Below are positions 54,455 through 64,000 of a stretch of DNA of 64,000 nt, in pieces. Every line of letters starts with the position of its first letter. Position 1 is the first letter of the stretch. A program made the translations under genes and the position numbers. Origin of the DNA: Mycoplasma wenyonii (GTDB taxonomy: Bacteria > Bacillota_I > Bacilli_A > Mycoplasmatales > Mycoplasmoidaceae); assembly GCF_003265155.1 (NCBI RefSeq), contig NZ_QKVO01000002.1, positions 24,001-88,000 of the forward strand. Reading direction: 5' to 3'. The notes below the pieces were generated by a model. That model saw nothing but the letters and a program-made list of their open reading frames with translations, was not told the origin of the DNA and made no database searches.

Positions 54455-54530
54455 GGGGGTGTAGTTCAATTGGCAGAACAGCAGTCTTCAAAACTGCGTG
54501 TTGTGGGTTCGAGTCCTGCCACCCCCGCCA
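54455..54530 (+). tRNA. tRNA-Trp (anticodon UCA), reads UGA
   Basis: Acceptor GGGGGTG pairs with CACCCCC, then G and encoded CCA. Anticodon arm GCAGT-CTTCAAA-ACTGC gives TCA (54488-54490). T arm GTGGG-TTCGAGT-CCTGC. It decodes UGA as Trp, in agreement with the in-frame TGA codons throughout. Confidence 0.96.
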
Positions 54531-59948: not shown

Positions 59949-60428
59949 TTGCTAAAGAAATTAATTATTTGCGGAAGTAATAGTAAAAAGTCTAGAAGTG
60001 TTACTTTAGCTGAGCAACTTTCTAGAGAGCTTTCTATTTGAGCTATCTATCTCAATGTTTCTGAGAATATTCCACTATTAAACAATGATTTAACTGCAAA
60101 GAAGGAATTTCCCCCAACCATAACTTTCTTGGTTGAAAAGATTAGGGAGCATGACGCCATCATACTAGTATTTCCCCAATACAACTACAACTTTTCAGGC
60201 TTTCTTAAAAATGTCTTAGATTGATGTAGTCTTGTCTCTAGAAAAATATTTCACTCAAAGATATTGGTTTTATTGGGAGTTAGTCTAACAGAGTCTGGGA
60301 GCGATGAATTCAAACAAGTTACTTCTTTTACCTGCAATGCTTTAGGGGCAGACAAAATAGTTTTTCTTAACTGAACTCCCAATACTAGATTCGAAGAGCT
60401 GATCAAGAACATCAAGAGATATGTCTAG
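59949..60428 (+). CDS. NAD(P)H-dependent FMN reductase family flavoprotein
   Basis: 159 residues of flavodoxin fold. FMN phosphate loop GSNSKKSRS near the N-terminus (GSxRxxSxN type), and the isoalloxazine-binding FPQYNYNFSGFLKNVLDW, matching PxYNxSxPGxLKNxLDW. Start TTG 59949. It stands five bases ahead of the FecCD permease gene, so reduced flavin may serve to reduce the imported metal or haem complex; that link is inference. Confidence 0.87.
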
Positions 60429-60432
60429 CTTT

Positions 60433-61551
60433 TTGCAGGCCTATTACAGGCCTGCTAGCTACATACATAATTTCAATTCCTCCCCAGACTCTAACTTCAA
60501 AAGATTCAACTGAAACTCTCTTCTATCCAATAAAAAGTTCTTACTTGTTTCTCTTTCTCTTGTTTCTCTTTTCTTAATAGGACTGAATCTTTATAGAAAG
60601 ATAGAAGGGTGGGATCTAGAGCAAATTCTCTCTCCATTATTTGGTTTCAGAGCCCCGGCACAAAAGGGTCAGGAGGTAAAGGGGATCAACTTCCTACCAT
60701 ATCAAAGAATTACCTGAATTATTTTGGCTTCTTTGATGGCTGCGACTCTCTTGGCCATCTCTGGAAATATCTCTCAATCTCTTCTGCAAAATCCTCTAGC
60801 AGACAGCTCAACCTTAGGAATGATGGATGGTGCCGCTTTAGGATTAATTGTTCTTAAAGCTTTTTTAGGTTCTAGTATTGGAAGTTACTACTGAGCTCAC
60901 TTTGTTGTTTCCTTCTTCTTTTCCTTTATTGTTTTTTCTTTAATTCTCTTCCTATTTAACAGAAGGGCTACGTGAGAGAGACAAAATCTATGCACTATGT
61001 TAATTCTTTTTGGATTAATGTTGAATATCTTTTTTAGAACAGCCATTCACTTAATAAAAGAATACAGTGAGGTTTCGCTAAAGACTTCCTTTGCTTTAGC
61101 TATTGGTGGTGCAGAGAATATCTATGAATTATTTCCTTTTCAATTCCCATTGATTCAAATTGCTTTTCCAATAGTAATAGTCCTATTACTAGTTACTAGA
61201 TTACTTTCTAAAAACCTAAATCTTGCAGAACTGGGATTTGATCAAGCTCATTCTCTGGGAGTAAATGTAAAGCTATTGCAATTCTTTGGCTATCTGATTA
61301 TCTTGTGTTGCAATACTCTAACGATTAACTTAGTTGGAAATATAGCTTTTTTAGGACTAATCAGCACTCATATAGCGAGAAAACTTTTAAAGACCAGAAA
61401 ATATGAAAACATCCTTCCTGTTTCTGCAATTATTTCTATTTGTTTATTGCTCACAGCAATAACAATTAACTCCTATCTAACCTATATCTCTAGCTCTAAT
61501 CTAATTGTTGCTTTGGGTGCTGTTTCCCTTCTATTCCTAAACAAAAAGTAA
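60433..61551 (+). CDS. FecCD-type ABC transporter permease 1
   Basis: Membrane subunit of the type II importers that take up iron-siderophore, haem or cobalamin. 372 residues. Diagnostic segment GNISQSLLQNPLADSSTLGMMDGAALG (Q...NPLA.P..LG...GA), later LGFDQAHSLGVNV (the coupling helix region) and NIAFLGLISTHIARKL. Eight to nine membrane helices. Start TTG 60433, which lies in front of a 7-bp hairpin; no ATG is available. First of a three-gene transporter unit. Confidence 0.88.
60435..60455 (+). promoter_or_regulatory. Perfect hairpin at the start of the FecCD operon
   Basis: GCAGGCC-TATTACA-GGCCTGC, a 7-bp GC-rich stem with 7-base loop, four bases after the reductase stop. There is no T-run behind it, so it is not a simple terminator. 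It covers the first codons of permease 1 if TTG 60433 is the start. Possible regulatory or RNA-processing element. Confidence 0.5.
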
Positions 61552-61586: not shown

Positions 61587-62609
61587 TTGAGCAGAGCTAG
61601 CTCTCTGCAAATTAGAGCACAAAATGAGCCTTCTAAGTGAATTTGTTTAGCTCTAGTTCTACTATCTTCTTCTTTTTTTGCTTTATTCACTTTCAATTGA
61701 GAGTATGACTTCTCCTATAAAGCTCTAAATCCTAGATTATGGCAGTATTTCTTAGCCATATTCAGTGGAGGGGCTTTAGGAGTTGCGGGATTAATGCTTC
61801 AAAAACTAACCAAGAATCCTTTAGCAGATATTTCTCTGTTAGGTATTGGATCCCTAAATATTATTGCCATAAGTGTTTTTATCTTTCTGAACTTTGACGG
61901 AGAGAAAGCTTCCCTTCCATTCTTAAAGGCTGTATTGCCAATAATTTCTTTACTGGCATCTCTGCTTGGTACCACAATTGTTTATCTCTTAACTAAAAAG
62001 AAGAAATCAACTCAATCTCTTGTAATCTCTGGAATTGCATTTCAATTCCTTTGTGAGGCAATCAGTGTCACTATCTTAAATTTCATCTCTAATGATCAAG
62101 ACAGCTCTAGACAAATATTTGTTGAAATCTCTAACTACAGCTATGGAAAGTTACCTGATATTGCTACTGTTTCTTTATTTCCTGAATGAAGAATTACAAC
62201 CATAGTTTCTTTCCTGTTAATTGCAGTTATTGCAATAGCTATTTGGGTATTCAGAAGAGATTTGGAGTTAATGGAGATTGGAGAGGATTATGCAATTTCT
62301 CAGGGAATCAAAGTAAAGAAATTGAGACTGATTTTGTTTGGTGCAATCGCATTGTTGGCGGGGATTGAGAGTGCATTAGTAGGAACTATTTCTCTATTGG
62401 GAATAATTGCTCCACATATTTCTAAATTTTTGTTTGGAAATAAAGCCTCATCAAATGTAATAGCTAGTTTTATTGTTGGAGCATTATTAGTTGTTTTAGC
62501 TACCTTCTTCTCTGTTAACTTGGCCCAGAATATCCCTATTGGAATCTTCTCAACAGCAATAATTACCCCTATCTTTCTATTCTTATTACTTAAAAATAAG
62601 AATCTCTAA
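61587..62609 (+). CDS. FecCD-type ABC transporter permease 2
   Basis: Second membrane subunit, 340 residues from TTG 61587. Core GALGVAGLMLQKLTKNPLADISLLGIGS, coupling region GEDYAISQGIKVKKLRL, and GTISLLGIIAPHISKFLFG match FecCD proteins and align with permease 1, so the transporter is a heterodimer. The N-terminus is uncertain because of the in-frame TAA at 61584-61586. Its stop overlaps the ATG of the next gene by one base. Confidence 0.88.
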
Positions 62610-64000
62610 TGAGATACTTGGCTCTCTCTATTTGTGCTCTTAGTTGTGCATGCTTTGGAATTGGTTTAGGGGTTATTAACAAACAAATTACTTCTTGCTT
62701 TCAAGAGCTTAAGCAAGATACATTTGTCAAAGAGAATAATCAAGTAACTCAAGGCCCAAACTTTAATGCTTGGAATCTAATCTACTCTTCTGGAAGTATC
62801 TCATATTTAAGACAACTTATTGACCAAATTCAAATAGGTTCAGATTCGGGCTTAAAACAAGTAGACACTGATTCAGGGGCTATGACAGTCTCTTCAACCT
62901 CTTATCTACCTAGACTCAAAAATCTTTTGAATTCCTTCCTTAAAGACTTAAGTTGAGAAACTTTGATAGCTAACCATGAAAAGGTGTCTCCGCCAAGTGA
63001 CCAGAATCAAACTCAATCTATTTCCACTAGCTTTTATCCATTTAAAACAAAATTCTTTTCCTTTAGTAATTGAGTTGAACTAGGAGTCATTGTCTTAGTT
63101 ATTGAAGCAATATTTTTACTTTCCCTAATTGTCTCAATAGCTTTAATCTCTCTGGATTGAAAGCTCAAAAGAGCAGAGAAGATTAAGTGAATACTCTACT
63201 ACTTATTCACTAATCTTTTGGGTTGGGTATATCTAAATTACCTGAAAAACAAGTCTGGAAAGAAAGCTTGAATACCTAAAAGAACTAGAAAAGATAATGA
63301 TTATCAATTACTAGATTATTCGGGTAATAAGTCAGCGATTGTTTTGTCTGATGTATGTTTTTCCCAAGATGATTACAAGATTCTAAAAGGGATTAATTTA
63401 GCGTTACAGAGAAATGAATTCTATGCTATTATCGGGCCTAATGGGGCGGGAAAAACCACTCTATTAAAGAATATTGGAGGGATTCTTAAATCTAGCTCTG
63501 GAAAGGTTGAAATAGGAGGAACAAATCTCTTATCAATTCCTAAAAAATCACTCTGGAAAAAGATTGTCTATATTCCTCAAGAGTTAGAGATCCAACCAGA
63601 TACACCGGTATATGACTTCTTACTTTATTCCAGGTATATCTTTCTCCCTAGAACTCAAAAAGCTACTCCGGAAGATCATTTAAAAGTATTGGAAGCAATT
63701 AAGAAATGTGGATTGGAGAGTTTCAGATATTCTAGGATGGGTGAGCTTTCTGGAGGTCAAAGACAAAAAGTTATCTTGGCAAGTATTATGGTCAAAGATG
63801 CAGAGATCATTCTTTTAGATGAGCCCACAACCCATCTAGATATTGAAAATAGAATGTTTTTGATCTCTTTCTTTAAAGAGTTAAAGAATTCTAAGAAGAT
63901 TGTGGTAGCTAATCTACATAACTTTGCAGAAATAGCTCAACTATCCTCCAAGATAATTGCCATCAAAAATGGAGTATTGCAAAAAATCTCAGGAACTACA
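62609..64000 (+). CDS. Membrane/extracellular domain fused to FecE-type ABC ATPase (C-terminus beyond window)
   Basis: One frame of at least 464 codons. Residues 1-25 form a signal helix (LALSICALSCACFGIGLGVI), about 26-154 a Ser/Gln/Asp-rich segment probably outside the cell, 155-182 and 194-212 two membrane helices. A short basic stretch leads into an ABC ATPase: Walker A GPNGAGKTT (276), Q-loop PQELEIQ, signature LSGGQRQ (380), Walker B ILLDEPTTHLD (404), H-loop NLHN. The ATPase is of the FecE/FhuC/BtuD kind. Such ATPases are normally soluble; the fused domain is unusual and might anchor the complex or replace a binding protein. Start ATG 62609 overlaps the previous stop. Confidence 0.85.

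Follow-up and report, generated by a model that had tools for sequence, protein, structure and literature searches.

Type II ABC importers are usually taken to need a substrate-binding protein (SBP) and to use loose, identical nucleotide-binding domains (NBDs). At the end of a stretch of 64,000 nucleotides of the Mycoplasma wenyonii genome (the window, contig bases 24001-88000 of an assembly of 596,665 bases in 37 contigs), a FecE-type ATPase is preceded in the same frame by membrane helices and a predicted exported segment, and no binding-protein gene lies ahead of the neighbouring permeases in the window, as the initial annotation had stated. Is this fusion real and, if so, what kind of importer does it belong to? 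The fused protein (ATPase A) is a genuine single-frame protein and a lineage-specific redesign, not a sequencing artefact. The importer is a redesign of a known machine, in which both ATPases stand on anchors of their own and no capture protein of the usual kind lies beside the importer. A clade with two different tethered NBDs and no recognisable SBP is a natural test of both rules for type II importers. It is also relevant to a long-standing question, that of the 'lost' mycoplasma binding proteins (Saurin and Dassa 1996, cited by PMC3091866).

Structure of the operon

The operon consists of an NADPH-dependent FMN reductase-like gene (59949-60428, + strand; Pfam FMN_red, E = 7.6e-25), FecCD permease 1 (60421-61551, + strand; 376 aa), FecCD permease 2 (61587-62609, + strand; 340 aa), ATPase A (from 62609, + strand) and ATPase B (64077-65348, just beyond the window), in this order. 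Each pair of neighbours overlaps except the two permease genes, which are 35 bases apart: the first gene overlaps permease 1 by 8 bases, the stop codon of permease 2 overlaps the ATG of ATPase A, and ATPase B overlaps ATPase A by 23 bases. Both permeases have the FecCD fold (Pfam FecCD, E = 3.1e-41 and 1.9e-53 for permeases 1 and 2) and match the HmuU, FhuB, BhuU and BtuC chains, the E values against HmuU (4g1u_A) being 5.9e-21 for permease 1 and, as a profile match, 3.1e-27 for permease 2.

The FMN reductase-like gene occupies the same place in the other six genomes of the window's genus, and a similar gene lies upstream of the operon in M. fastidiosum. As a neighbour it is only suggestive of import of an iron complex, haem or cobalamin. 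In the M. haemofelis group, the place of the reductase ahead of the permeases is taken by two small multi-helix membrane proteins (L039:3704-4524), one of them with a weak PQ-loop match.

ATPase A as a single protein

With translation table 4, the frame of ATPase A is open from 62609 to 64000 and on to 64099 past the window, giving 496 aa (the first 464 within the window) with six TGA codons; with table 11 it is broken at the TGA codons. Comparison with five intact homologues from the genus shows Trp, always encoded by TGA, at two of the TGA-coded positions, W116 and W155, and the read-through is therefore correct.

It is conceivable that the fusion arose from a frameshift in the assembly, or that an internal start produces two separate proteins. 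The INIFAP02 assembly is a draft with a coverage of ~7x (PMC6256526), TTG codons occur at residues 204 and 246, and M. suis Illinois (L033:6329-7917) has its NBD in another frame than the membrane part, the switch falling in an A-rich run. However, intact full-length homologues with the whole architecture, in the same single frame, are present in nine other genomes, namely M. ovis, M. wenyonii Massachusetts, 'Ca. M. haemolamae', M. parvum, 'Ca. M. haemominutum', M. haemofelis, M. haemocanis, 'Ca. M. haematobovis' and Mycoplasmoides fastidiosum. No conserved internal start was found across the homologues. In two of them, including M. wenyonii Massachusetts, the 90 codons ahead of the P-loop contain no ATG, GTG or TTG, and the fused frame is thus almost the only conceivable source of the NBD in the Massachusetts strain. 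M. suis likewise has no ATG, GTG or TTG start upstream of the P-loop in its NBD frame, and a separate NBD gene there would have no usable start; this therefore looks like a frameshift rather than two genes. An artefact or a pair of genes is thus largely refuted by the nine intact homologues and is extremely improbable. The single-frame fusion of a membrane and extracellular part to a FecE-type ATPase, which the initial annotation proposed, holds as one table 4 frame conserved in 11 genomes, and neither the frameshift nor the pair of separate genes that would have spoken against it was found.

Domains and topology of ATPase A

ATPase A is composed of a TM helix, a loop of ~136 residues, a strong TM helix, a weak amphipathic segment and a complete FecE-type NBD. 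The first TM helix (residues 5-23, 62621-62677, + strand) follows a short positive N-terminus, predicted to be inside, and has a hydropathy of 2.2. The loop (residues 24-159, 62678-63085, + strand), predicted to be outside, is rich in Ser, Thr, Asn and Gln, is of low conservation, and contains no Cys between residues 31 and 150. The second TM helix (residues 160-178, 63086-63142, + strand), with a mean hydropathy of 2.9, is followed by a Lys/Arg-rich stretch that is predicted to be cytosolic. AF2 models, based on an alignment of 7 sequences and with mean pLDDT values of 68 (the part of the protein held in the window) and 71 (the N-terminal part), show a helix at 2-35 (block pLDDT 76-91), small helices in the loop, a long helix at 136-182 and, with lower confidence, a helix at 188-216.

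This last helix covers a third, weakly hydrophobic segment (residues 194-212, 63188-63244, + strand) with a hydropathy of 1.0 and lysines on both sides. Of the 'two more membrane helices' claimed earlier, the one at 160-178 stands, but the one at 194-212 is probably an in-plane amphipathic helix and not a membrane span, because the NBD would lie outside if this were a third span and the loop were exported. Alternatively, there might be three true spans with the N-terminus outside, in which case the middle domain would be cytosolic and not exported. The hydropathy of the third segment, which reaches 1.8-1.9 in M. haemofelis and M. fastidiosum, is in keeping with such an arrangement, whereas the Lys/Arg-rich stretch straight after the second TM helix, the positive N-terminus and the weakness of the third segment in the window's genus make it very unlikely.

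The NBD (residues 242-474, 63332-64000, + strand, ending past the window; Pfam ABC_tran, E = 2.2e-31) is intact, as the initial annotation had it, with GPNGAGKTT, LSGGQ, ILLDEP and the H-loop all present. The Walker A and B, LSGG, Q-loop and H-loop elements of a FecE-like NBD are found, and the ATPase motifs are conserved in both NBDs of the operon. Foldseek matches for ATPase A include the NBD of HmuUV. The best NCBIfam model is FecE with 157.7 bits, below the cut-off of 375 bits of the equivalog NF008409; the protein is accordingly called FecE-type, with no claim that it is FecE itself.

A second tethered ATPase

ATPase B is a second membrane-tethered FecE-type ATPase. Hydropathy analysis gives both ATPases an anchor of two robust TM helices with a positive N-terminus and predicts the NBD to be inside, the loop of ATPase B being only 10-18 aa long in the window's genus. 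The P-loop lies after the two TM helices, at residue 267-319 in ATPase A and at about 219-301 in ATPase B, compared with 37-93 in conventional mollicute loci. Because its ATPases are not the separate soluble subunits of a FecCD-type importer, the importer is described here as a variant working like that class and not as an ordinary member.

In a tree of NBDs, the tethered A and B domains form one clade (96/89), which adjoins the soluble ATPases of Ureaplasma (94/92), and therefore the tethered ATPases had a soluble ancestor. The tree indicates that a soluble FecE-type ATPase was duplicated and that both copies now bear anchors. No homology between the A and B anchors is detectable (hhalign probability 0.5%), which requires either two acquisitions or very fast divergence.

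The P-loop of ATPase B in the M. haemofelis group (L039:8287-9690) reads GCNGSSKTT, with Ser for the usual Gly before Lys (compared with GxNGxGK), and its signature reads LSGGE, while ATPase A of the same group is canonical. In view of this P-loop, the full catalytic competence of ATPase B in these species is not certain, and judging from the sequences the two NBDs of the group may be catalytically unequal.

Distribution

The search of relatives that had been suggested recovered the same fusion. In the family, 11 of 95 genomes are matched by a profile of the ATPase A anchor. They fall into three genera and include all of their members: seven in the window's genus, three in the M. haemofelis group and one in the group of M. 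fastidiosum, a non-haemotrophic relative. The profile has no match in the other genera among these 95 genomes, and no further convincing match to the fused N-terminus came from the 298 genomes sampled from the order or the 395 sampled from the class. The order permease-permease-ATPase A-ATPase B is kept in 11/11 genomes, with ATPase A frameshifted in M. suis.

The earlier association of the fusion with life on red cells loses weight, since the fusion is also carried by M. fastidiosum, which has been described as apathogenic and cultivable (PMC11895434); it therefore appears to be independent of life on red cells. The same properties of M. fastidiosum make the redesign testable.

Comparison with known transporters

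Like HmuUV, BtuCD-F, FhuCDB and BhuUV-T, the present system has FecCD permeases and FecE-scoring NBDs with the catalytic motifs kept. In those importers, however, the NBDs are normally separate and soluble, whereas here two different NBDs each sit on a two-TM anchor and no SBP is recognised nearby. In the FhuCDB structure, for example, FhuB is served by a pair of FhuC copies, with FhuD as the binding protein (PMC8660799). The closest permeases, and in the tree the closest soluble ATPases, belong to conventional mollicute FecCD loci (Ureaplasma canigenitalium and other genera). Unlike the fused operons, these loci have a single ATPase of the soluble type, where one is in the locus, and usually an exported neighbour.

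The MacB-type transporters resemble ATPase A in joining an NBD, TM helices and an exported part in one chain. In MacB, the NBD comes first in the chain and the protein is its own transmembrane subunit; in ATPase A, in contrast, the NBD is C-terminal and separate FecCD permeases are present. In OpuA, an extracytoplasmic part is also covalently joined to the transporter. OpuA is, however, a type I importer with true substrate-binding domains (PMC11065425), whereas here the extracytoplasmic part is a small helical loop, carried by the NBD subunit of a FecCD-type system. A direct literature search for tethered importer NBDs gave no match, which is weak evidence, since subscription papers were mostly outside its coverage.

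It is fairly probable that the operon encodes a FecCD-type importer (type II, BtuCD/HmuUV-like) with two different NBDs, each permanently membrane-anchored by an N-terminal two-helix module. Each ATPase would run from an inside N-terminus through TM1, an outside loop, TM2 and an amphipathic helix to the NBD. Permeases 1 and 2 would form the pathway and ATPases A and B the motor of a fixed 1:1:1:1 complex, working presumably in the direction of import. The anchors would most likely pack beside the permeases, holding the NBDs in place and in register, and would bring the loop of ATPase A to the outer surface, where it may act as a shield or gate at the entrance.

By analogy with the class, for which it is the default, the substrate would be an iron complex. 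From annotation alone, the haemoplasma system has been called a ferrichrome system (PMC3146833), and a cobalamin transporter has been listed (PMC3196708, PMC3091866); the passages found in these three papers do not mention the fusion.

Is there a binding protein?

FecCD permeases are present in 33 of the 298 order genomes. An exported protein of 300-720 aa adjoins the permeases in 18 of 19 other FecCD loci sampled, compared with none of the 11 fused operons. An SBP-like lipoprotein family (A7), derived from conventional loci, occurs in G008, G016 and G017, all with conventional operons, and is absent from the ten fused genomes searched. The fused clade represents one evolutionary event, which limits the weight of this comparison.

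The search beyond 64000, which was to look for a conventional SBP, encountered the second tethered ATPase, then tsf on the minus strand, and then an exported PstS-like protein of the PBP superfamily (window-equivalent 66311-67204), located between tsf and infC, apart from pstB, which lies on contig C2. No other PBP_like_2 protein was found in the M. wenyonii genome. As a cognate binding protein the PstS-like protein is disfavoured, and it is better explained as PstS, part of a tsf-infC block: it resembles PstS, and in M. wenyonii Massachusetts it stays with tsf/infC while the FecCD operon is elsewhere. M. parvum has three copies of such a protein and M. suis more than one. In M. fastidiosum, a lipoprotein is encoded downstream of ATPase B (L041:5901-7271); it has no Pfam match and by eye (MWNIANYE...) resembles a lipoprotein of the endonuclease/exonuclease type, and was rejected as a binding protein.

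A conventional binding protein may nevertheless be encoded elsewhere, too diverged to be recognised, with the anchors as a neutral elaboration. As regards the NBD anchors, such a protein is compatible with the importer proposed above. PF01497 is above its cut-off in none of 39 order genomes, including those with SBP-like lipoproteins; its absence should thus be taken as weak evidence, because conventional mollicutes also fail and the profile cannot show absence in mollicutes. In addition, haemoplasmas encode many exported proteins without a known function, and in M. suis and M. parvum a PBP-superfamily protein directly follows ATPase B. Against this, the candidate at 66311-67204 has the PstS-like character and the tsf/infC linkage just described, and a hidden SBP is considered somewhat unlikely. 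Arg residues (the RLPR motif and R295) are thought to dock the binding protein on BtuC/HmuU-type permeases. These residues are incomplete or absent in the haemoplasma permeases, and equally so in other mollicute FecCD permeases, and the comparison is uninformative.

Possible role of the exported loop

The loop of ATPase A, with that of ATPase B, could have replaced the missing SBP as a tethered receptor or lid, holding substrate at the permease mouth. The contrast in exported neighbours, the distribution of the A7 family, and the conservation of G62 and F110 (invariant) and S61 (nearly so) in an alignment of 11 sequences are in line with such a role. However, the loop is short, with 136-157 aa in the window's genus, about 106 in M. 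fastidiosum and about 83-97 in the M. haemofelis group, and within the genus its identity is 32-55%, compared with 55-81% for the NBD. It has 0-1 Cys and few His or Met, no conserved set of His/Met/Tyr ligands was found across the homologues, and neither sequence nor fold searches of the PDB matched the loop or the N-terminal part (best E = 0.64). The B loop is very short in the window's genus, and the tether and the loss of the SBP appear together in a single clade, which makes the link between them a single event. A replacement of the SBP by the loops is therefore unlikely. That this is a binding-protein-independent type II importer, in which anchors and extracellular loops grafted onto a heterodimeric NBD pair took over the role of a lost SBP, is quite unlikely.

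Since the loop is short, variable, poor in Cys, His and Met, and without a PDB match, a structural or gating role is favoured over that of a metal or haem receptor. The receptor for iron, haem or cobalamin that the initial annotation envisaged is thus not supported, while the loop may still act as the lid that it offered as the alternative.

Start codons and the genetic code

ORF calling with ATG, GTG and TTG only shortens ATPase B in M. suis, M. parvum, 'Ca. M. haemolamae' and 'Ca. M. haemominutum'. In these cases, the missing part of the membrane region can be read upstream in the same open frame, which offers candidate starts of the ATT/ATA type. Such gene calling thus cuts the partner ATPase short in several haemoplasmas. 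Within the window, ARAGORN called a tRNA-SeC with anticodon TCA at 54455-54530; given that TGA encodes Trp, it is more likely a tRNA-Trp reading UGA.
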